Under the pieces are notes generated by a model that searched no databases, was not told the origin of the DNA, and saw only the letters and a program-made list of their open reading frames with translations. Below, piece by piece: positions 35,078 through 51,958 of a DNA stretch of 64,000 bases (position 1 is the first letter of the stretch; each line of letters begins with the position of its first letter). Made by a program: the position numbers and the translations under genes. This DNA comes from Phormidium sp. FACHB-1136 (lineage in GTDB: Bacteria > Cyanobacteriota > Cyanobacteriia > Phormidesmidales > Phormidesmidaceae), in contig NZ_JACJRS010000001.1 in NCBI RefSeq assembly GCF_014697375.1, forward strand, positions 124,001 to 188,000, read 5' to 3'.

Positions 35078-35836
35078 CTAGCTTTCTGTCACTTTAGCGT
35101 GTTCCTCAAATATGAAATGTTCATTTCGGTTTGCCTTACTACTATCTGGCCATTTTACCCAATAGTGCCTTTCTTCACGACGAATGTCTAAAACAGGATA
35201 GTCACCAATCTCTATACTTGCCAGTTCTTCCTTGGGTAGCTCTGACGATTGCAGGGTTGACGGTTTTAGGATGGTTGTCTGTGTAATCTTAAGGATGCCA
35301 GGTTGTGGCGTAGAGGTATCTTCAGGTTCTCCAATCAAACCAACCTTGATTGCCTCTGCCATTTTTTCGGCATCAAAGAGATTCATATCAGCTTGGGAGT
35401 CTACAAAACAGCACTCTATCAAAATAGCAGGCATTGAGGTATTTTTGAGAACGAAAAAATTTCCATTTTTGACTCCTTTATCTTTAAATCCTAATTTGAC
35501 TATCTCGGAAAGAACTGATTGAGCAATTGCTCTTCCAGTATTACTAGCTACGTAGACTTCTGCGCCTCTGGGGTTAGGTGTCGGAGAAAAAGCGTTAAAG
35601 TGAATAGAGACAAAGACATCAACCTGATTGTTGTTGGCTTTTTTAACTCTTTGACGAAGAGAATCACTAACGCTGGAAGCTTGACTGGGCGTACAGTTTA
35701 TTATGCTATGACCTGCTGAAGAAAGCTTTTGTGATAGTCGAGATCCCACTGCTTTGGTTAGGTCATCTTCCTTCTTTATGCCGACTGCGCCAGTATCAGG
35801 AGGACAATTATGCCCAATATCAATTCCAAATTTCAT
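35078..35836 (-). CDS. N-acetylmuramoyl-L-alanine amidase (Amidase_3) with C-terminal SH3-like domain
   Basis: A 252-residue zinc amidase. Ligand and catalytic residues are visible: H9 (DIGHN), E23 (KKEDD), H79 (SIHFNAF) and E141 (ILIECCF). A ~70-residue C-terminal domain begins near TTILKPSTLQSSELP; the same type of domain sits in the middle of the hydrolase encoded just upstream (QSSELDETEK). It cleaves the amide bond between MurNAc and the stem peptide. No signal peptide is seen, so export or release must be unconventional or by lysis. The gene and its neighbour are AT-rich compared with the chromosome around them. Confidence 0.85.
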   Translation of the reverse strand: MKFGIDIGHNCPPDTGAVGIKKEDDLTKAVGSRLSQKLSSAGHSIINCTPSQASSVSDSLRQRVKKANNNQVDVFVSIHFNAFSPTPNPRGAEVYVASNTGRAIAQSVLSEIVKLGFKDKGVKNGNFFVLKNTSMPAILIECCFVDSQADMNLFDAEKMAEAIKVGLIGEPEDTSTPQPGILKITQTTILKPSTLQSSELPKEELASIEIGDYPVLDIRREERHYWVKWPDSSKANRNEHFIFEEHAKVTES

Positions 35837-35862
35837 GGCCAGAATCCTTATGTATTACAGAA

Positions 35863-35961
35863 GGGCACCTCGATCAATTGCCTTATTGCGAATCTGAAGA
35901 GCCTGGAACCATTGGAGTCTCGTGCCCATTCTCAATAAGATTTGTATTTTTCGAGGTGCCC
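35863..35961. mobile_element. 99-bp MITE-like element, copy A
   Basis: It has terminal inverted repeats GGGCACCTCGA. The 4-bp sequence AGAA directly flanks both ends as a target duplication. It is almost identical to copy C (48561-48659) and clearly related to copy B (48155-48253). It lies between the two cell-wall hydrolase genes and carries no ORF. Confidence 0.9.
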
Positions 35962-36003
35962 AGAAAGTATTGGAACTTTGGTACACATTCAAGGGAAAAA
36001 TGA

Positions 36004-37194
36004 TTAATAATCCCAAATTCGTTGTGTTCTTAAGTCAAGATGGATAAAACCCTTACGAGCACCACGACCAAATCCACCTTCCCATTTCCCTGCGTTGTAC
36101 CATTCTTGTTCAAACCGAGATTCCAAATCCGAGATAGAACCTTGGGCTGGACGTAAATCTACTGCATAACCAAACGGGTGATTAGCTCCACTTCCTCCCA
36201 CTCGTCTTTCTACATCTTTTGGGCGATACCAAGAATTAACTAGTAGCGCAGATCCCCACCATTCGCGCACTTCATCTAGCCTACGGGCCAGCTTGATCAC
36301 ATTTTTTTTGTGCGTAGGATCTGTAACGATACGTTCTCTACTGTGTGCACTGACTTCGCCTACAGTAAAGTAACGACTAACAGGAGATGACCATTTGTCC
36401 CATTGAACTTGATCCCATTGAGGCAGCGTTTCTAATAGAGCTTGCGGTTGTGAAGTCGGTTCTGGTGCTTCTGTCCAGGGTAGCTGCCAATGTTCAAGAA
36501 AGATATACCAACTTCCTGCATCATGACTCAAGTTAACTAAGGCATGCCCTCCTAATTCTGTCTCCAAGCTATATTCACTGAAATCTTCAATGAAATAGTA
36601 TTTCCCTTTGGAAACAAAAGCCTTTTCAGTCTCATCTAGTTCGCTAGACTGCTTATTCCACTCTTTTTTTAGCCAAGTATCATTCAGAGCTATAATTTTT
36701 TTAGGGCTTGAGAGTACTGCCTCTTTGCTATATTGAGCTAGTAAATCCTTCGCTTCAGGAAATACGCTTTTAATCTTGCTGACATAACTTGGATCGGCAG
36801 CATAACCTTTATCCCAAATATGCTGCAAATACCCTTCAGGGTTATCACTATATCCTTCCCATCCTTTATAGGGAGAATTAGGTCGATCAACAAATCGCCA
36901 ATATCCAATTGCAGCATGTTCTGCTGTTTTCCATTTGCACCAATGTTCTCCGTTAGGTTCAGTTGGAGTTTTTAACCAAATTTTATGGGTAATTTTATCT
37001 GTATATTTATCGTCAATATTATCTCTCCATTTGAGTCCACCAGGATTTCCAGCCTCTTGAAACAGATGACTTGTACCTCTTGCTGACTCAACAATTCCCT
37101 GTGCTAGTTGAACAACCCGTAAGCTACGAGAAGGATCGGGTATCTTATCAATTGTTGCAACAGCCTGGACATAATTTTCCCATGAGAAGATCAT
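36004..37194 (-). CDS. Peptidoglycan hydrolase: glucosaminidase plus M15-type peptidase
   Basis: A 396-residue multi-domain protein. The N-terminal glucosaminidase-like domain (about 20-155) has QGIVESARGTSHLFQEAGNP and KWKTAEHAAIGYWRFVD. A middle SH3-like domain (about 175-250) shares the QSSEL...WYIFLEHW style with the amidase next door. The C-terminal peptidase M15 domain (about 265-396) has the zinc motif HPFGYAVD and HLDLR. It should cut glycan strands and peptide stems. There is no signal peptide. It probably forms an operon with the amidase, now separated by a MITE. Confidence 0.8.
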   Translation of the reverse strand: MIFSWENYVQAVATIDKIPDPSRSLRVVQLAQGIVESARGTSHLFQEAGNPGGLKWRDNIDDKYTDKITHKIWLKTPTEPNGEHWCKWKTAEHAAIGYWRFVDRPNSPYKGWEGYSDNPEGYLQHIWDKGYAADPSYVSKIKSVFPEAKDLLAQYSKEAVLSSPKKIIALNDTWLKKEWNKQSSELDETEKAFVSKGKYYFIEDFSEYSLETELGGHALVNLSHDAGSWYIFLEHWQLPWTEAPEPTSQPQALLETLPQWDQVQWDKWSSPVSRYFTVGEVSAHSRERIVTDPTHKKNVIKLARRLDEVREWWGSALLVNSWYRPKDVERRVGGSGANHPFGYAVDLRPAQGSISDLESRFEQEWYNAGKWEGGFGRGARKGFIHLDLRTQRIWDY

Positions 37195-43787: not shown

Positions 43788-46016
43788 ATGGCGAAAAACA
43801 ATTCTTTCTTTTCCAGCATCAAGAACGCGATCCACTCCGAAGACGCGGTCTACAACACCTCGAATAACGACTCCTTTGATCAAGTCCTGGAGCGGGCTAG
43901 GGTCAGCCGTCGCGGGTTCCTGAAGGGCGGTTCTTCCCTGGCGGCGGCTTCGGTGCTCGGTATGGGCTTGGCCCTGGGCACCGATAGCCTAAAAAAAGGG
44001 GGATCCCAGGCGGTTGCCTCGACGCGGAGTCTGAGCTTTTCCCCGGTAGCTAAAAATATCGCTGACACCCTGACCGTACCTCCCGGCTATACGGCACAGG
44101 TGCTGCTGGCCACGGGCGATCCCCTCAAGGCCAACGTCACTCCCTATAAAAACGACGGTACGGATAACGACTTTGACGTGCGGGCGGGCGACCACCACGA
44201 CGCCATGCACTACTTTGGCCTGAATCGGGCAGGCAACGGCTGGGACCCCAACGGCACCGACCGGGCGCTGCTGGCCATTAACCACGAAGTTTGCGAAGAC
44301 GTGGGTTTTGTCCACCCCAATGGCCCCACGGACTACGGCCCGGAGAACACCAATGCCCGCCCCACGGTGGAAATTGACAAGGAAGTAGCGGCCCACGGCG
44401 TCACCATCGTGGAAATTGTGAAGCAGGGCAACACCTACGAAATCAATCGCAACTCCCGCTTTAACACCCGCGTCACCGCTGCCACCCGCTGCCAAATCAC
44501 TGGCCCCGCCCGCCGCAGCGCCATGATGGTGACGGCCTTTTCCCCCAGTGGCGAACAAACTCGCGGCACCCTCAACAACTGCGCCAACGGCTACACCCCC
44601 TGGGGCACCTACCTCACCTGTGAGGAAAACTGGGCCGGATACTTCCACCGCCGCGAGGAGGACAGTGCCCGTACCGCCAATGAAGTGGCTTCCTTTAAGC
44701 GCTATGGCATTGGCAACGCCACCTCTGGTCGCTACAACTGGTCGCGCCCTGGGGCCAACGACCGCACGGATATGTACCGTCGCTGGGATACCAGCAAGAC
44801 CGGAGCCCGCCCTCAGCAGGACTTCCGCAACGTGGCCAATACCTTTGGCTGGGTGGTGGAAATCGACCCCTTCAACCCCAATGCCATGCCCCAAAAGCGT
44901 ACCGCCATCGGGCGGTTTGCCCACGAGGGCTGCTGGGCGGCTCCGGCGGTGGCAGGGCAATCCCTGACCTTCTACTCCGGCGACGATGCCCGCAACGAGT
45001 ACATCTTCAAGTTTGTCTCCGCCGCCAAGTGGGATCCCCGCGATGCCAACCGGGGTATGGCCGCTGGGGATAAGTACCTGAACGAAGGCACCCTCTACGC
45101 CGCCAAATTCAACGACGACGGCAGCGGCGAGTGGTTGCCCCTCACCCTCAGCAATCCGGCCATCGCCAACTACGCCGACTACGATTTTGCCGACGAAGCC
45201 GACGTGCTAATCAATGCCCGTATCGCCGCCGATGCCGCTGGGGCCACCAAGATGGATCGGCCTGAGTGGGGTGGTGTCAGTCCGGTGAATGGGGAAGTCT
45301 ACTTCACCCTCACCAACAACGTCTCCAGCAGCAGCGGGCGCGGTGTACGTACCGCCCTGGATGCCGCCAACCCCCGCTACTTCGCCGACGACAAAGACGG
45401 CAAGGTGAGTTCCGGCAACGTCAACGGCCACATCATCCGCTGGCGGGAAGCGGGCGACAACCACACCGCCACCCGTTTCACCTGGGATGTGTACCTATTC
45501 GGTGCCCGTTCCACGGCGGATGCCAACGTCAACCTGTCTGGCCTCACCGAAGAAAACGCCTTCTCCAGCCCCGATGGCCTGTGGTTTAGCGAAGCGGTGC
45601 CCGGTCTGCTGTGGCTGCAAACCGATGACGGCTACATGACCAACACCAGCAACTGCATGATGCTAGCAGCGCTGCCCGGTCGGGTGGGCGATGGTGGCCC
45701 CAAGACGGTGCTGAACAAGTCGGTGCCCATCAACAACAACGCCGACCAAGCGGTGCAAACCTACGTGGGCCAAGAGGCTAGTCCCACGGTGCTGCGGCGC
45801 TTCCTCGTGGGGCCACGGGATTGCGAAATCACCGGAATCACCGAAAGCCCCGACGGCAAGGCTATTTTCGTCAACATCCAGCATCCCGGCGAAAATAGCA
45901 CCTCCGCCTACGACCCCACCCAGTTCACGAGCCACTGGCCCGATGGTGGCAATGCCCGCCCCCGTTCGGCCACGGTGATCATCACCCGCAACGACGGCGG
46001 CACCATTGCGGTGTAG
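43788..46016 (+). CDS. phoX: PhoX-family alkaline phosphatase (DUF839), Tat-exported
   Basis: A 742-residue protein of the PhoX/DUF839 family. The N-terminus has a twin-arginine signal SRRGFLKGG at 40-48 with a hydrophobic stretch after it, as expected for a folded metalloprotein. Family blocks include LLAINHEVCEDVGF, GTLNNCANGYTPWGTYLTCEENW and DGLWFS. PhoX hydrolyses phosphate esters outside the cytoplasm under P limitation, using Fe and Ca. A Pho-box-like array precedes it and a perfect hairpin follows. Length fits the cyanobacterial members. Confidence 0.92.
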   Translation: MAKNNSFFSSIKNAIHSEDAVYNTSNNDSFDQVLERARVSRRGFLKGGSSLAAASVLGMGLALGTDSLKKGGSQAVASTRSLSFSPVAKNIADTLTVPPGYTAQVLLATGDPLKANVTPYKNDGTDNDFDVRAGDHHDAMHYFGLNRAGNGWDPNGTDRALLAINHEVCEDVGFVHPNGPTDYGPENTNARPTVEIDKEVAAHGVTIVEIVKQGNTYEINRNSRFNTRVTAATRCQITGPARRSAMMVTAFSPSGEQTRGTLNNCANGYTPWGTYLTCEENWAGYFHRREEDSARTANEVASFKRYGIGNATSGRYNWSRPGANDRTDMYRRWDTSKTGARPQQDFRNVANTFGWVVEIDPFNPNAMPQKRTAIGRFAHEGCWAAPAVAGQSLTFYSGDDARNEYIFKFVSAAKWDPRDANRGMAAGDKYLNEGTLYAAKFNDDGSGEWLPLTLSNPAIANYADYDFADEADVLINARIAADAAGATKMDRPEWGGVSPVNGEVYFTLTNNVSSSSGRGVRTALDAANPRYFADDKDGKVSSGNVNGHIIRWREAGDNHTATRFTWDVYLFGARSTADANVNLSGLTEENAFSSPDGLWFSEAVPGLLWLQTDDGYMTNTSNCMMLAALPGRVGDGGPKTVLNKSVPINNNADQAVQTYVGQEASPTVLRRFLVGPRDCEITGITESPDGKAIFVNIQHPGENSTSAYDPTQFTSHWPDGGNARPRSATVIITRNDGGTIAV

Positions 46017-46156: not shown

Positions 46157-47638
46157 AGAATGGCACTGACATAAGAGGGCAAAAAAGGCTTCAAGCGCTT
46201 GATCTGTAAGAATCAAAGCGTCGAAGCCCATAACTATGCCTCTATGATGCCGAATCGTGCGGAAGTCCTCAAGGAGAAATACCAGAACAGTACCGGTTTA
46301 GCGTTTGCCAAGATTCTACCGGAAGCTGAGATCCAGTCTGTGCTGGACGAGCAAGGAATCGCCTATCGCCAAGTGCTCTACACCCCGATGGTGGTGCTGT
46401 GGAGTTGGATCTCTCAAGTGCTCGACGTTGATGGCAGTCTCAGCCATGCCGTCAAGGGAGTAGTGACCTGGATGAGTCTGGCGGGATTGGATCCGCCGTC
46501 AGCGGATACCGGGGGCTATAGTAAAGCGCGTAAGCGCCTGAGTGAGTCAATTTTTCCGCCCCTATTACAGCGAGTGGCGAGGGCGTTGCAGCGGCAGGTG
46601 ACGCCCGCTCAACAGTGGTGTGGTCGTCCGGTGAAGGCCTTTGACGCGACGACGGTCTTGATGAGTGATACCGAGGCTAATCAAGCGGCGTATCCCCAAC
46701 ACAGCCATCAGAAACCCGGTTGTGGCTTTCCTATTCTCAAGCTACAAGTGTGGTTTCGCGTGATGACTGGAGCAGTCTTGGAGGTTGCCATGGCTCCCTT
46801 TCGGGTGAGTGAATGGCGTTTAGCCCGCCAACTTTATCAGAAGCTGCGCCCGGAGGATGTGGTGGTGGCCGACTCGGCCTATGGCACCTATGTGGATCTG
46901 GCCTGGGTCGCCCTGAGGGGAGCCGATGCCGTCTTTCGCAAGCATCATCAGCGCCGTTGTGATTTCAGGCGGGGCAAGAAATTAGGGATTGGCGACCACA
47001 TCGTCCGCTGGCACCGCCCCAAGCAATGCCCCAAACCGCTCTCGCCTGAGGAGTTTGAGGCCCTGGCTGACTCGATTGAGGTGCGCGAAGTCTATATCTC
47101 TATTCAAGTGCCTGGGTTTCGTCCCACCAACTTTGTGGTGGTGACCACCCTGAAAGACCCCAAGCGCTATCGCAAAGCCAAATTGGCCGAACTCTATCGG
47201 CTCCGTTGGCAGGCCACCGAAGTCAATCTCAGACATCTCAAAACCACCTTAGCCATGGAGATGATTGCCGCCAAAACGCCCGCTATGGTGACCAAAAGTA
47301 TTTGGGTTCATCTGTTGACCTACAATCTGCTACGGACGCTCATGTGGGATGCGGTGGCCAACTCCGAGGTCGCGGCTTTACGGGTCTCCCTACAGGGCGC
47401 TCGGCAACAATGCAATCCCTTTCGACCCGAGTTTCTCCATCTGGCTCCATCCCAACAACAGCGAGGCTATCAGGCTTTGTTAAGCGCTGTGCGACAGCTG
47501 ATTGTTCCGTTTCGCCCGAACCGTTCAGAACCCCGAGTCGTGAAACGTCGTCCCAAACCGTTCCCGAGAATGCAAGAACCTCGCTCAGTCCTGAAAGCTA
47601 AGCTGGCCGCTTGATAGGGCTTACGTCAGTGCCATTCT
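46157..47638 (+). mobile_element. Complete IS4-family insertion sequence
   Basis: Terminal inverted repeats AGAATGGCACTGACATAAG (left) and AGAATGGCACTGACGTAAG (right, complement) enclose one transposase gene. The 8-bp target duplication ACTTTAGT lies at 46149-46156 and 47639-47646. Length is 1,482 bp. The intact duplication and gene suggest a recent insertion. Confidence 0.93.
46244..47614 (+). CDS. IS4-family transposase
   Basis: A 456-residue transposase from the ATG pair at 46244. The DDE residues lie in FDATTVLMSDT, VVADSAYGTY and the YRLRWQATEVNLRHLK block, which is the YREK region of IS4-type enzymes. The frame is open and full length. It lies inside the element with clean inverted repeats. 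An earlier TTG start at 46199 is unlikely. Confidence 0.92.
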   Translation: MMPNRAEVLKEKYQNSTGLAFAKILPEAEIQSVLDEQGIAYRQVLYTPMVVLWSWISQVLDVDGSLSHAVKGVVTWMSLAGLDPPSADTGGYSKARKRLSESIFPPLLQRVARALQRQVTPAQQWCGRPVKAFDATTVLMSDTEANQAAYPQHSHQKPGCGFPILKLQVWFRVMTGAVLEVAMAPFRVSEWRLARQLYQKLRPEDVVVADSAYGTYVDLAWVALRGADAVFRKHHQRRCDFRRGKKLGIGDHIVRWHRPKQCPKPLSPEEFEALADSIEVREVYISIQVPGFRPTNFVVVTTLKDPKRYRKAKLAELYRLRWQATEVNLRHLKTTLAMEMIAAKTPAMVTKSIWVHLLTYNLLRTLMWDAVANSEVAALRVSLQGARQQCNPFRPEFLHLAPSQQQRGYQALLSAVRQLIVPFRPNRSEPRVVKRRPKPFPRMQEPRSVLKAKLAA

Positions 47639-47689: not shown

Positions 47690-48022
47690 CTAGCTTCGGT
47701 TCTTACGAGGAATTGTAAAGACTGCTCCCTCTAATTGTTGTGTTAGCCTCACCTGGCAACCGAGGCGAGATGTTTTAGATAGTCCATAAGCTAAGTCAAG
47801 CATATCATTTTCGTCATCCGAGATTCCTCCTGTCATAGGGAAGTGAGGTTCATCTACAATGACATGACAAGTTGTACAAGCAATTGCGCCTTCACAAGCA
47901 AATTCCAAATTAGCAAGTTCAGGATATTTAAATTTTAAATTTAGGAGTGTCTCACCCTCTTCTCCGCTAAGTGAAACCGTTGATCCATCAGATAGTACAA
48001 ACTCAATGTTCACGGTGCTCAT
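47690..48022 (-). CDS. Adrenodoxin-type [2Fe-2S] ferredoxin
   Basis: A 110-residue ferredoxin from the ATG at 48022, preceded by AAGGAGACAAGAA. The cluster block is ACEGAIACTTCHVIVDE, with the last cysteine in RLGCQVRL. EENDMLDLAYGL-type wording (DDENDMLDLAYGL) is typical of ISC-Fdx/adrenodoxin rather than plant-type PetF. Such ferredoxins serve Fe-S assembly or P450-like oxygenases; no such partner is in the window. The longer frame to 48112 reads through a repeat element. The gene seems originally coupled to the EF-P-like gene upstream. Confidence 0.85.
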   Translation of the reverse strand: MSTVNIEFVLSDGSTVSLSGEEGETLLNLKFKYPELANLEFACEGAIACTTCHVIVDEPHFPMTGGISDDENDMLDLAYGLSKTSRLGCQVRLTQQLEGAVFTIPRKNRS

Positions 48023-48063
48023 TTCTTGTCTCCTTGCCTGGGCAAATTTTGTTAGCGGGATGT

Positions 48064-48279
48064 GGTAGTGCATTAATCTACGGGCCAGAGAAAAATCAAC
48101 CAGAAACAGCAATCTACTGCCGTAAGGTCTTCAGGGTCGCCTGATTATTCTCTAGGGCACCTCGATTAATTGCCTTATTGCGAGTTTCTGGAGCCTGAAA
48201 CCGTTAGCCTCTCGTAGGCGTTCTCAATAAAATCCGTATTTTCCGAGGTGCCCTCTAGCCTGTACGAAATAGGACTACC
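48064..48279 (-). repeat. 113-bp GGTAGT/ACTACC element, copy 2, split by a nested MITE
   Basis: On the minus strand it starts GGTAGTCCTATTTCG and ends GCACTACC. After removing the MITE (48155-48253) and one TCTA copy it is exactly 113 bp and aligns with 9997-10109. The TAG of its GGTAGT end serves as stop codon of the EF-P-like frame. A direct repeat CCTGGGCAA lies at 48037-48045 and 48278-48286. Confidence 0.75.
48155..48253. mobile_element. 99-bp MITE-like element, copy B (nested)
   Basis: It has terminal inverted repeats GGGCACCTCGA/TCCGAGGTGCCC and is flanked on both sides by TCTA. It is more diverged in its interior than copies A and C. It sits inside the 113-bp element copy 2, so it inserted later than that element. 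Confidence 0.9.
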
Positions 48280-48758
48280 TGGGCAATAAAATTTTGTAAA
48301 TCTCATTATCTAACATCAGCACCCTAAACTTTTCAACTTGTGGAATCAATGCAAGAATTTCTTTTACAACTTTTTCAACTGGAAAAGCTTGACCATCCGT
48401 TGTAAAAAGTGAATCTCCGTCATCATACACATAGTCAAATTCTTCTTCTGTAACATCAAAGGTTGTAAATTCAAAATCAGCATTTACAGATAGATTTTTT
48501 TGTGAATTGGTATTTATATTTTCTAAAACCAACTTCACGGTTGAGCCACCACTACCTTGTGGGCACCTCGATTAATTGCCTTATTGCGAATCTGAAGAGC
48601 CTGGAACCATTGGAGTCTCGTGCCCATTCTCAATAAGATTTGTATTTTTCGAGGTGCCCTTGTATAACAAAATCCTTTTCTTTTACTTCATAGATATCGC
48701 CGTCACACTCAACAATATTCCTAATACTTAATTCATTTGCCACAAGTTTTTTTGTCAT
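48275..48758 (-). pseudogene. EF-P-like two-domain protein gene interrupted by MITE copy C
   Basis: The 5' part (48660-48758) reads MTKKLVANELSIRNIVECDG then DIYEVKEKDFVIQ. The 3' part (48275-48559) continues GSGGSTVKLVLENINTN and ends IYKILLPR. Removing the MITE and one TTGT copy joins them in frame to 126 residues. The pattern follows EF-P: a KOW-like domain I, a domain II with YVYDDGDSLF (EF-P: YxYxDGDxxxF) and FRVLMLDNEIYKILLP (EF-P: VxVLFYNGEPIxVELP). Domain III is absent, and the lysine normally modified at the loop tip is serine. AAGG precedes the ATG. The gene is AT-rich. Family assignment is from visible pattern only. Confidence 0.65.
48561..48659. mobile_element. 99-bp MITE-like element, copy C (inside the EF-P-like gene)
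   Basis: It has terminal inverted repeats GGGCACCTCGA and CGAGGTGCCC and is flanked on both sides by TTGT. It is nearly identical to copy A 12.6 kb away. As inserted it ends the EF-P-like frame after nine residues read from the element. Confidence 0.92.
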
Positions 48759-48877
48759 AACCTTATTCCCCAATAAATATTATTTATTTTAGCTCTAGCC
48801 CTCGTTGCCTGTCAATCCGCTGCACTGGGGTGTTAGCTGAGAAACGCACCGATCATACGCAACCTCACCTCACGACG

Positions 48878-48910: not shown

Positions 48911-49011
48911 TGCTGTTCAATCTCGCGTTTCTCCATCCCTCTGACCGAGCGGTAGCCTTCTCGCCCCCAGCTACCTACACTAAAAGGACTGCTTTTAACC
49001 AATCCGCGTCT

Positions 49012-50376
49012 ATGACCATTGCTAGCGCCCCTTCGCCCATCAACTGGGACACCTTCGCACGCTCCTTGGGCAACATTGAGGTGGTGCGGGATCCCAGCCA
49101 GCTTGAGAAATTATCGAAGGACTACTACCACTTCAGTCCGGTGCTCCAGGGGCAGTTGGCGGGCTATGTTGCCGATCTGGTGGTGCGGCCCAAAACGGAA
49201 GCCGAGGTGATCCAGGTGGCCCAGCGCTGCGTGGTGGATCGGGTGCCGCTGACGGTGCGGGGGGCAGGTACGGGTAACTATGGCCAGTGCATTCCCCTGG
49301 CGGCTGGGGTGGTGTTGGACATGAGCGCCATGAACCAGGTGAAGTGGGTGAAGCCGGGGATGGCCTGTGTGGAGCCGGGGGCCAAGTTGGCGGCGATTGA
49401 TCGGGCGGCACGGGAAACAGGTTGGGAACTGCGGATGGCCCCTTCTACCTACCGAACGGCCACCATGGGCGGATTTATTGCGGGCGGCAGCGGCGGCATG
49501 GGGTCGATTACCTACGGCCAACTGCGAGATCGGGGCAACCTCAATGCCGTGCGGGTGGTGACGATGGAGGACAGTCCCCGCGTGATTGAGCTGCGGGGCG
49601 ATGCGGTGCAGCAGGTGAACCACGCCTACGGCACCAATGGCATCATCACCGAGTTGGAAATTCCCCTGGGGCCAGCCTACCCCTGGGCCGAGGCCATTGT
49701 GGTGTTTGACGATTTTATGACAGCAGCTCGGTTTAGCCAGGTTTTAGGGGAATCGGACGGGCTGATCAAAAAGCTCATCACCGTGTTTGCTTGGCCTGTA
49801 CCCAGCTACTTTGGGGCGCTTCAGGCCCATCTACCGGAGGGCAAGGCGGCGGCCTTTGTGATGATTGCGGAACCGTCTCTGGAACTTTTTGGAGAACTGG
49901 TGAAAGAATTGGACGGCACCATAACTTGCCAAAAATCTGCCCAGGAAGCGAGGAAAGGTACCCTACTGGTGGAATTTACCTGGAACCACACCACCCTCCA
50001 TGCCCGCAGTGTTGACCCCACATTGACCTACCTGCAAACGATCTTTCCCTACGACGCCGAGCTAAAAGGCGTCGAACATTTCTATCACCACTTTGGCGAT
50101 GAGGTGTTGATGCATTTGGAATTTCTGCGCATCGGGGGGCGGGTTTGTCCGGCGGCATTGCAACTTGTCCGCTACACCACCGAAAATCGCCTCAACGAAA
50201 TCATCCGCTACCACGAAGACCATGGAGCCTTCATCGCCAACCCCCACACCTACCTACTCGAAGATGGCGGCATGAAACAGGTGGATCAGGCCCAGGTGAA
50301 CTTCAAGGCCCAGGTAGATCCCTACGGTCTGCTGAACCCCGGCAAAATGCGCGGCTGGCTAGAACGACAGCCATGA
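49012..50376 (+). CDS. FAD-binding oxidase (GlcD/VAO family)
   Basis: A 454-residue flavoprotein from the ATG at 49012; the frame extends upstream without family residues. The FAD-binding PCMH domain has DLVVRPKTEAEVIQVAQRC, LTVRGAGTGNYGQC, MGGFIAGGSGGMGS and YGTNGIITELEI. The C-terminal half is the substrate domain ending DPYGLLNPGKMRGW. It resembles glycolate/lactate oxidase-type GlcD proteins found across cyanobacteria, but the substrate is not known. Confidence 0.85.
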   Translation: MTIASAPSPINWDTFARSLGNIEVVRDPSQLEKLSKDYYHFSPVLQGQLAGYVADLVVRPKTEAEVIQVAQRCVVDRVPLTVRGAGTGNYGQCIPLAAGVVLDMSAMNQVKWVKPGMACVEPGAKLAAIDRAARETGWELRMAPSTYRTATMGGFIAGGSGGMGSITYGQLRDRGNLNAVRVVTMEDSPRVIELRGDAVQQVNHAYGTNGIITELEIPLGPAYPWAEAIVVFDDFMTAARFSQVLGESDGLIKKLITVFAWPVPSYFGALQAHLPEGKAAAFVMIAEPSLELFGELVKELDGTITCQKSAQEARKGTLLVEFTWNHTTLHARSVDPTLTYLQTIFPYDAELKGVEHFYHHFGDEVLMHLEFLRIGGRVCPAALQLVRYTTENRLNEIIRYHEDHGAFIANPHTYLLEDGGMKQVDQAQVNFKAQVDPYGLLNPGKMRGWLERQP

Positions 50377-50469: not shown

Positions 50470-51036
50470 TCAGGCTGCTTTCTGGAATTTCGCTTGGAGT
50501 AGGGCATCGAGAATGAAGTCATACCCCGTGATGGACTGCACTTGCTCCGGGGTTAGACGGGCGAGTTCCTCCTCCACCCGCTGTTGAAGCGCGTTGAGGG
50601 AGGGGAAGTTCTCGCCTTTCCAGGTGGCTTTGAGGTGCGGCCAGAAGCGTTCTATGGGGTTGAGTTCGGGACAATGGGGTGGTTGGAAGAGGGGAATGAT
50701 GTTTTCGGGCCACTGGATGGCCTTGGCTCGATGGGCCGGGGCCCGGTCGAGTTGCATCACCACCACCGAGTCGCCTAGGGCACGGGAGAGGTCATCGAGG
50801 AATTGTTGGAAATGGGTCTGATTCAGATGGGGGTGGGTTTGGCTCCAGTGCCATCCACTCACCGGGTCAACCACCCCATAGAGCCAGAAGGCTTCCCGAG
50901 GCCAATCCACCTTGGCGATGGGTTTGACACCCTTGGCGGTGATCCCTCGCCCCGTCTCGGTTTTGCACCCAATCCGGCTTTCGTCCTGCACCAGATACCG
51001 AATCGTGGGCAGGTTCAGCATCGATTGCAGGGCCAT
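50470..51036 (-). CDS. IS630 transposase, DDE half (OrfB)
   Basis: A 188-residue catalytic half. DDE residues lie in LVQDESRIG, VVMQLDRAPAHRAK and ELNPIERFW. Its ATG overlaps the TGA of the upstream frame (TGATG). Full-length enzyme would come from a -1 frameshift on an A8 run just before (about 51053-51060). Reinitiation at the overlap is the alternative. Confidence 0.9.
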   Translation of the reverse strand: MALQSMLNLPTIRYLVQDESRIGCKTETGRGITAKGVKPIAKVDWPREAFWLYGVVDPVSGWHWSQTHPHLNQTHFQQFLDDLSRALGDSVVVMQLDRAPAHRAKAIQWPENIIPLFQPPHCPELNPIERFWPHLKATWKGENFPSLNALQQRVEEELARLTPEQVQSITGYDFILDALLQAKFQKAA

Positions 51037-51560
51037 CAGGGCGAGACTGAGTTTTTTTTAAACGTCGCTATCGCCTCTGGAGACGGCTTTACGCTCTGGG
51101 GACGGGGCACTTTGAGTTTGGCTTGCAGTTTGTTGCGCACAAACTGTCGTACCGTCTCATACTGCACCGTCAGACCACACTCCTGCTCCAGCCACACCAC
51201 AATTGCCCCATAACGGCGAAAGCCCTCCTCCGACGCCAGACGTTGGTTCAGTTTCTCCAGCACCTCCCCCCGAATCTGGGGCTCCGCTCCGGGTGCTTTC
51301 TTTTCCTCCAGCAGTGCGGCTAAGCCCCCTTGACGATACAACAACAGCCAGCGGCTAATCGTCGCAGGGCTGCGCCCCAACCGCTCACCAATCTCCTGCC
51401 GATACCGGATTTGCTTCGTCTTGATCCACCACAGCATCTGCAACCGCTCTTTGCGAAATCCCGTTTTCGCCTGCTTCAGGCTTTTCTCCAGAAAGGTTTC
51501 GCTTTCACCAACCTCAATCACGAAGGGACGGGCCATCCTTTCTACCCTCTCGAACGTCAT
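51036..51560 (-). CDS. IS630 transposase, HTH half (OrfA)
   Basis: A 174-residue DNA-binding half. A homeodomain-like HTH contains RYRQEIGERLGRSPATISRW and a second helical segment GLAALLEEKKAPGAEP. It ends after an AAAAAAAAC run with IATFKKNSVSP. It overlaps the DDE half by one base, consistent with frameshift expression. Confidence 0.88.
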   Translation of the reverse strand: MTFERVERMARPFVIEVGESETFLEKSLKQAKTGFRKERLQMLWWIKTKQIRYRQEIGERLGRSPATISRWLLLYRQGGLAALLEEKKAPGAEPQIRGEVLEKLNQRLASEEGFRRYGAIVVWLEQECGLTVQYETVRQFVRNKLQAKLKVPRPQSVKPSPEAIATFKKNSVSP

Positions 51561-51885: not shown

Positions 51886-51958
51886 TGGAGAATAGGAGAT
51901 TCGAACTCCTGACCTCTGCGGTGCGATCGCAGCGCTCTACCAACTGAGCTAATTCCCC
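51886..51958 (-). tRNA. tRNA-Ala (CGC)
   Basis: A 73-nt cloverleaf. The acceptor GGGGAAT pairs with ATTCTCC and has the G3:U70 pair that marks alanine. The anticodon loop is ATCGCAC with CGC, the T arm has GTTCGAA, and CCA is not encoded. The octamer GCGATCGC, the cyanobacterial HIP1 word, lies in the anticodon arm. Confidence 0.95.

Follow-up and report, generated by a model that had tools for sequence, protein, structure and literature searches.

The window, a stretch of 64,000 nucleotides from Phormidium sp. FACHB-1136, contains a minus-strand gene related to translation elongation factor P (EF-P) that is split in two by a MITE. We interpret this gene as a horizontally acquired and repurposed EF-P scaffold that the MITE inactivated recently, a reading that we hold with reasonable confidence. 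As no uninterrupted orthologue was found, we infer its former function from its anatomy. What we describe is probably a recently killed relative of EF-P, foreign and repurposed, rather than a working new factor.

The 5′ half of the gene (48664..48758, minus strand) begins with an ATG at 48758 and encodes residues 1 to about 32, which represent the first strands of a KOW-like domain I. The 3′ half (48275..48560, minus strand, including the stop codon at 48275-48277) encodes the rest of domain I, with the loop QGSGGS, followed by an OB-like domain II, and ends at the boundary between domains II and III. Between them lies the MITE (48561..48659), 99 bp in length, with the terminal inverted repeats GGGCACCTCGA...TCGAGGTGCCC and a target-site duplication, TTGT, on its left (48557..48560) and right (48660..48663). 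The initial annotation held that two same-strand halves flank a 99-bp element and that the removal of 103 bp restores a frame of 126 codons, which both the coordinates and the translation confirmed. Excising the MITE together with one TTGT (99 + 4 bases) results in a single frame of 126 codons plus a stop, and excising 99 bp alone results in a frameshifted product of 35 residues. Left uncorrected, translation from the ATG ends at a stop codon after 42 residues. In its present state the gene is therefore broken: what remains is a 42-residue fragment and an orphan 3′ half. The MITE inserted into an open 126-codon gene with a 4-bp duplication, and recent inactivation by this element is the best reading of the locus.

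Because of the duplication, the same codon flanks the MITE on either side, and the ends of the MITE are inverted repeats. This would be compatible with ribosomes hopping over a MITE hairpin from a CAA to the duplicated CAA and so producing one protein. The repeated CAA follows from the duplication alone and is therefore no sign of bypassing, and neither an orthologue nor conservation points to it. We consider hopping vanishingly improbable and, as it is without evidence, rejected it.

The inserted element is short, has terminal inverted repeats and a target duplication, and is present in multiple copies, as expected of a MITE. Forty-one matches were found across the genome; with scores obtained for 40 of 80 first-look candidates, the true number may be higher. 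Four of the matches, counting the in-gene copy, are 100% identical. Of 31 copies that were fetched, 29 were parsable, and an exact 4-bp target duplication flanks 24 of them. Such a duplication is thus typical of the family, and a difference of 103 bp is what would be expected. L164 is an exception among the four identical copies in having no target duplication. A second family copy, 82% identical, is located 21 bp past the stop codon of the EF-P-like gene (48155..48253, duplication TCTA), and a further copy in the window (35863-35961, duplication AGAA) is 99% identical to the in-gene copy. The end pattern GGGCACCTCGAWWAAT, with at most one mismatch, occurs at 119 genome sites, 58 forward and 61 reverse, whereas a reversed control pattern occurs at none.

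Open frames near MITE-type ends are fragmentary. One transposase-like open frame near such ends, a candidate for the parent of the MITE, matched no family in a Pfam and NCBIfam search. Several contigs of the same genome (C13, C41, C48, C63 and C227, and likewise C105, C120, C187 and C197) start equally far from an end of MITE type, at 263-278 or 92-107, and these shared distances suggest that the assembly breaks at a parent element present in multiple copies. The family resembles the MITEs of IS elements with 4-bp duplications in being short, in lacking a transposase gene, in its matching terminal repeats and in its many copies. Its duplications, too, are mostly exact and of 4 bp, and what sets it apart is that the frame of its candidate parent matches no Pfam or NCBIfam model.

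Rejoining the two halves allowed the EF-P relationship proposed in the initial annotation to be evaluated by profile searches, and it held up. Pfam EFP_N (PF08207) matched residues 7-60 of the rejoined protein with 30.6 bits (cut-off 23), which identifies domain I; the 5′ half alone scored 12.4 bits, under the cut-off. NCBIfam efp (TIGR00038) matched residues 7-101 with an E-value of 9.2 × 10−12, at a score (45 bits) below its curated cut-off of 185.8. The NCBIfam EfpL model matched residues 7-125 (E-value of 1.1 × 10−7, 32 bits, cut-off 216). The best match among solved structures was a translation elongation factor P (E-value of 3.1 × 10−5). With a custom EF-P profile of 103 rows, comprising 102 from fetched loci (96 distinct) and E. 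coli Efp and leaving out the rejoined protein itself, the joined frame scored 44.7 bits, the halves 8.6 and 25.0, and the 99-bp join 8.4. The best of 300 composition shuffles, 259 of which returned a score, reached 5.8 bits.

These scores also bear on whether the halves are two unrelated short genes or resemble EF-P by chance. Taken singly, the halves have weak matches or none, as unrelated genes would. Conversely, the profile match runs without a gap over the junction and is lost on the 99-bp join, the target duplication is exact and shuffled sequences score far lower. Considering the joined score of 44.7 bits against 5.8 for the best shuffle, we rejected both chance similarity and unrelated genes as highly improbable.

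As judged from these profiles, the predicted product is homologous to domain I of EF-P and, more weakly, to domain II. With a mainly cyanobacterial profile, domain II on its own reached 10.7 bits and the 3′ half 11.2, both below the 11.7 of the best whole-protein shuffle. An alphaproteobacterial profile gave 14.1 bits for domain II, slightly more than the 12.6 of the best among 500 shuffles. No OB-domain match of the rejoined protein was listed in Pfam at an E-value limit of 10, where the filters of HMMER remove most matches above 0.1 in both Pfam and NCBIfam searches. We assign domain II because the alignment is continuous, to residue 101 with efp and to residue 125 with the EfpL model; domain II also contains a YxDGD motif. 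This makes the family call for domain II plausible. Domain III is absent, and a search of all six frames of 48020-48277, both with the second MITE and after its removal, found no remnant of it. The initial annotation had described a protein of domains I and II only. The presence of domain I and the absence of domain III agree with that description, while domain II is weaker than it stated, being close to shuffle scores. A single-sequence structure model of the 93-residue 3′ half (pLDDT 68; the other four models 40-48) had no PDB match at an E-value of 0.001 and is uninformative either way. The protein also matches a phage family of unknown function, phrog_18481 (E-value of 0.001), and neither it nor the neighbouring ferredoxin described below had a match in PADLOC.

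We compared the loop that is modified in EF-P with the 102 EF-P rows, which are cyanobacterial and alphaproteobacterial only. The alignment is gapless, with the seven residues IQGSGGS opposite, for example, KPGKGGA or KPGKGSA. Thus, the rejoined protein has Ser at the loop tip, where all 102 rows (96 distinct) have Lys, and Gln at position −2, where all 102 have Pro. Both the basic, usually modified tip residue by which EF-Ps are recognised and the proline typical of their lysine types are missing. This bears out the initial annotation, which had read the modified lysine as replaced (QGSGGS). EfpL/YeiP proteins are recognised by a loop of more than seven residues with Arg at the tip, and this protein has a seven-residue loop with Ser. 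The net charge of its domain I is −5.2, compared with −0.1 to +4.9 in the 102 rows, +1.8 in E. coli YeiP and +2.5 in E. coli Efp.

The initial annotation further suggested that a two-domain, lysine-free EF-P relative was an unfamiliar type. The lack of lysine is familiar: a survey of 1166 three-domain EF-Ps lists K at the tip of 81.11%, R at that of 14.75% and one of A, M, N or Q in the remainder, so roughly 19% carry Arg, Asn, Met, Gln or Ala instead of Lys (PMC6544042). A Ser tip is not listed in the accessible text of that survey. Among the papers listed in our literature searches, we came across no two-domain bacterial EF-P relative. As far as their accessible text tells, both surveys (PMC6544042, PMC11611912) admitted three-domain proteins only, so two-domain relatives would have been missed.

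The product might alternatively have been a ribosomal paralogue, a two-domain EF-P that acted in the manner of IF5A or, on special motifs, of unmodified EfpL. In favour of this possibility, E. coli EfpL works with an unmodified tip (PMC11611912). Domains I and II together are the architecture of a/eIF5A, which likewise counts for it. Against it, the tip residue is not basic, the charge of domain I lies outside the range of the EF-P rows and E. coli EfpL, and no a/eIF5A family was listed for the rejoined protein in Pfam or NCBIfam at an E-value limit of 10. We regard a ribosomal role as quite improbable.

Several indirect signs suggest that the interrupted stretch was a gene. Its GC content by codon position is 0.47/0.24/0.24, and the chance of a random 126-codon open frame at the same base composition is about 5 × 10−5. 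The other five frames contain 4 to 17 stops. AAGG stands immediately upstream of the ATG, and a promoter-like site, TTGACA-18-TAAAAT (48786..48815, minus strand), matches 11 of 12 consensus positions 27 nt before it. When the 90 nt upstream were shuffled base by base 5000 times, a promoter score of 11/12 was reached in 3 cases. A scan of the region found three promoter-like sites of all grades where 2.2 are expected, so the weaker sites carry no meaning.

The same signs are relevant to a decayed fragment, in which a foreign full-length EF-P was transferred, lost domain III and drifted before the MITE struck an already dead gene. The missing domain III, the transposase genes nearby, a very long branch in the tree and the lack of an orthologue in any search would all fit such a history. 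Yet at no more than 26% identity to the aligned EF-Ps, the frame is still free of stops over 126 codons at 32% GC. Its codon-position composition is like that of a coding gene and a near-consensus promoter is still in place. Moreover, its end coincides with a domain border and no remnant of domain III lies downstream. We therefore consider a decayed fragment fairly unlikely.

Next to the case for a recently inactivated gene stands the question of how widespread its relatives are. No uninterrupted orthologue was identified in the genome contig collection (genome_contigs), plasmids and phages (tblastn, E-value of 1), nor in viral contigs, whether queried with the rejoined protein or with a three-sequence alignment. 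The initial annotation had proposed looking for uninterrupted orthologues in other cyanobacteria, and none turned up in 63 genomes of the order or 386 of the phylum. In the order, 34 genomes including our own matched at an E-value of 0.01, and in the phylum 20, again including our own, matched at 0.001. Genomes elsewhere likewise contained no uninterrupted orthologue: 11 matched at 0.01 among 24 genomes with related ferredoxins (drawn from 39 loci), 70 at 10−4 among 347 genomes from the class to which G468 belongs (a genome that contains an alphaproteobacterial locus), and five at 0.001 among the six genomes of one order in that class. All matches listed outside our own genome were EF-P-like frames of 148-377 aa from stop to stop, the shortest (148 aa) being located at a contig end. 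Peptide-pattern scans are sensitive to close relatives only, so more distant two-domain homologues may exist.

EF-P itself is near-universal in bacteria, as illustrated by EFP_N matches in 290 of 292 genomes of the phylum. Of these, 288 matched once and two (G308 and G310) twice, representing possible EF-P paralogues. The two genomes with no EFP_N match (G083 and G109) may reflect gaps in assembly; G083 is rated 96% complete. The interrupted gene was itself missed by this phylum-wide search, so other broken copies would be missed too. A normal EF-P of 185 residues with the loop PGKGSA is encoded elsewhere in the same genome.

The interrupted gene is AT-rich and is accompanied by a ferredoxin gene (47690..48022, minus strand). 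The latter encodes an intact ISC-type [2Fe-2S] ferredoxin of 110 aa (fdx_isc 69.2 bits, below the cut-off of 132.1). GC content is 32% in the EF-P-like gene and 41% in the ferredoxin gene, compared with 62% and 59% in the flanking genes at 43788-46016 and 49018-50376. An IS4-family transposase gene (46199..47614, plus strand; NF033592, 186.6 bits) borders the AT-rich pair on the left, and a gene for a GlcD-like FAD-linked oxidase (49018..50376, plus strand) borders it on the right. Beyond the pair, an IS630-family transposase gene is split over two minus-strand frames (50470-51560), with the profile match coming from its 3′ part, and a tRNA gene lies on the minus strand at 51886-51958. A second AT-rich patch in the window (35078-37194) adjoins a MITE copy and contains genes for an N-acetylmuramoyl-L-alanine amidase (Amidase_3) and a glucosaminidase/peptidase M15. 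Cell-wall lytic enzymes of these kinds also occur in phages.

Fifty-six of 60 genomes in the order, our own included, contain the GlcD-like gene, which provides a reference point for the pair. At 29 other loci of this gene, with flanks of up to 1.5 kb that were in some cases cut by contig ends, neither member of the pair was found next to it. In the closest relative, whose GlcD-like protein is 90% identical, homology resumes only at 48969. The ferredoxin was found in one of 60 genomes of the order, our own, and in two of 386 genomes of the phylum: our own and a weak match with 32% identity, in G083. Its relatives in the genome contigs number 39 and are 38-50% identical. Thirty-seven of these have titles that we take to be alphaproteobacterial, and the other two belong to a SAR202 genome and an unplaced proteobacterial genome. 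None of the 39 loci has an EF-P-like neighbour within flanks of up to 5 kb on each side. The ferredoxin also matched 284 plasmid records, with less than 60% identity, and three phage records, and had no match in viral contigs.

For the EF-P-like protein, we sampled the cyanobacterial phylum and the class of G468. Its best score was 40.2 bits in Alphaproteobacteria (347 genomes) versus 28.7 in the cyanobacterial phylum outside our own genome (386 genomes), and the five best alphaproteobacterial matches were to genomes of 0.8-1.3 Mb. In a phylogenetic tree, the protein was located on an end branch of length 5.95 and the nearest rows were alphaproteobacterial, but no starred set contained it. Grouping with the cyanobacterial EF-Ps was not rejected (AU p 0.087, or 0.052 with E. 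coli Efp added), and neither was grouping with E. coli YeiP (AU p 0.22). No aligned EF-P is more than 26% identical to it. Together, composition and distribution suggest with fair confidence that the EF-P-like gene and the ferredoxin gene are foreign as a pair, and we lean slightly towards an alphaproteobacterial donor.

From these observations, we propose the following history for the inactivated scaffold. Horizontal transfer would have brought the gene in, either along with the ISC-type ferredoxin gene or to a site beside it, and until recently it would have been intact and transcribed from a promoter of its own. The product was probably a repurposed KOW/OB scaffold acting outside polyproline rescue, and the translation work would be left to the genome's normal EF-P. 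We think that it was no polyproline-rescue factor because its KOW domain is acidic, domain III is gone and there is no basic tip on the loop, which in EF-P reaches the peptidyl-transferase centre; in EF-P, domain III contacts the tRNA and the small subunit. Its likeliest earlier role, at which we can only guess, would be contact with other proteins, or a weak one with RNA, at a place other than the ribosomal E site.

A broader and more speculative possibility, which we think would sooner prove wrong than right, is that two-domain, acidic, lysine-free EF-P derivatives form a non-ribosomal KOW/OB family in unsampled bacteria. Such proteins would perhaps be associated with an ISC-type ferredoxin, and the window would hold one freshly inactivated member. 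A single disrupted orphan is a lead and no demonstrated new factor. Its interest lies in the loss of the tip residue, the proline at −2 and domain III, which are the usual markers of EF-P function. Provided that the gene remained open and coding up to the MITE insertion, it would exemplify a rare event, the departure of a bacterial EF-P scaffold from translation.

Compared with EF-P (TIGR00038, PF08207), the rejoined protein shares the KOW-like domain I, a loop of equal length (seven residues) and the YxDGD motif in domain II. It differs in having no domain III, Ser rather than Lys at the tip, Gln rather than Pro at −2 and an acidic domain I, with no more than 28% identity among the matches listed and 45 bits against a cut-off of 185.8. 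EfpL, as described in the accessible text of PMC11611912, has three domains, an extended loop and Arg at the tip, in contrast to the seven-residue loop and Ser found here. EfpL/YeiP and this protein are alike in that each is a diverged paralogue in a genome that also encodes a normal EF-P, and the EfpL model covers residues 7-125. The protein shares its two-domain layout with a/eIF5A and HEX-1, although no eIF5A model was listed for it. HEX-1, the fungal Woronin body protein, is a repurposed relative of eIF5A that left translation; it derives from eIF5A, whereas the protein described here would derive from bacterial EF-P. If the proposed family does exist, it would represent a bacterial counterpart of the conversion of eIF5A to HEX-1.
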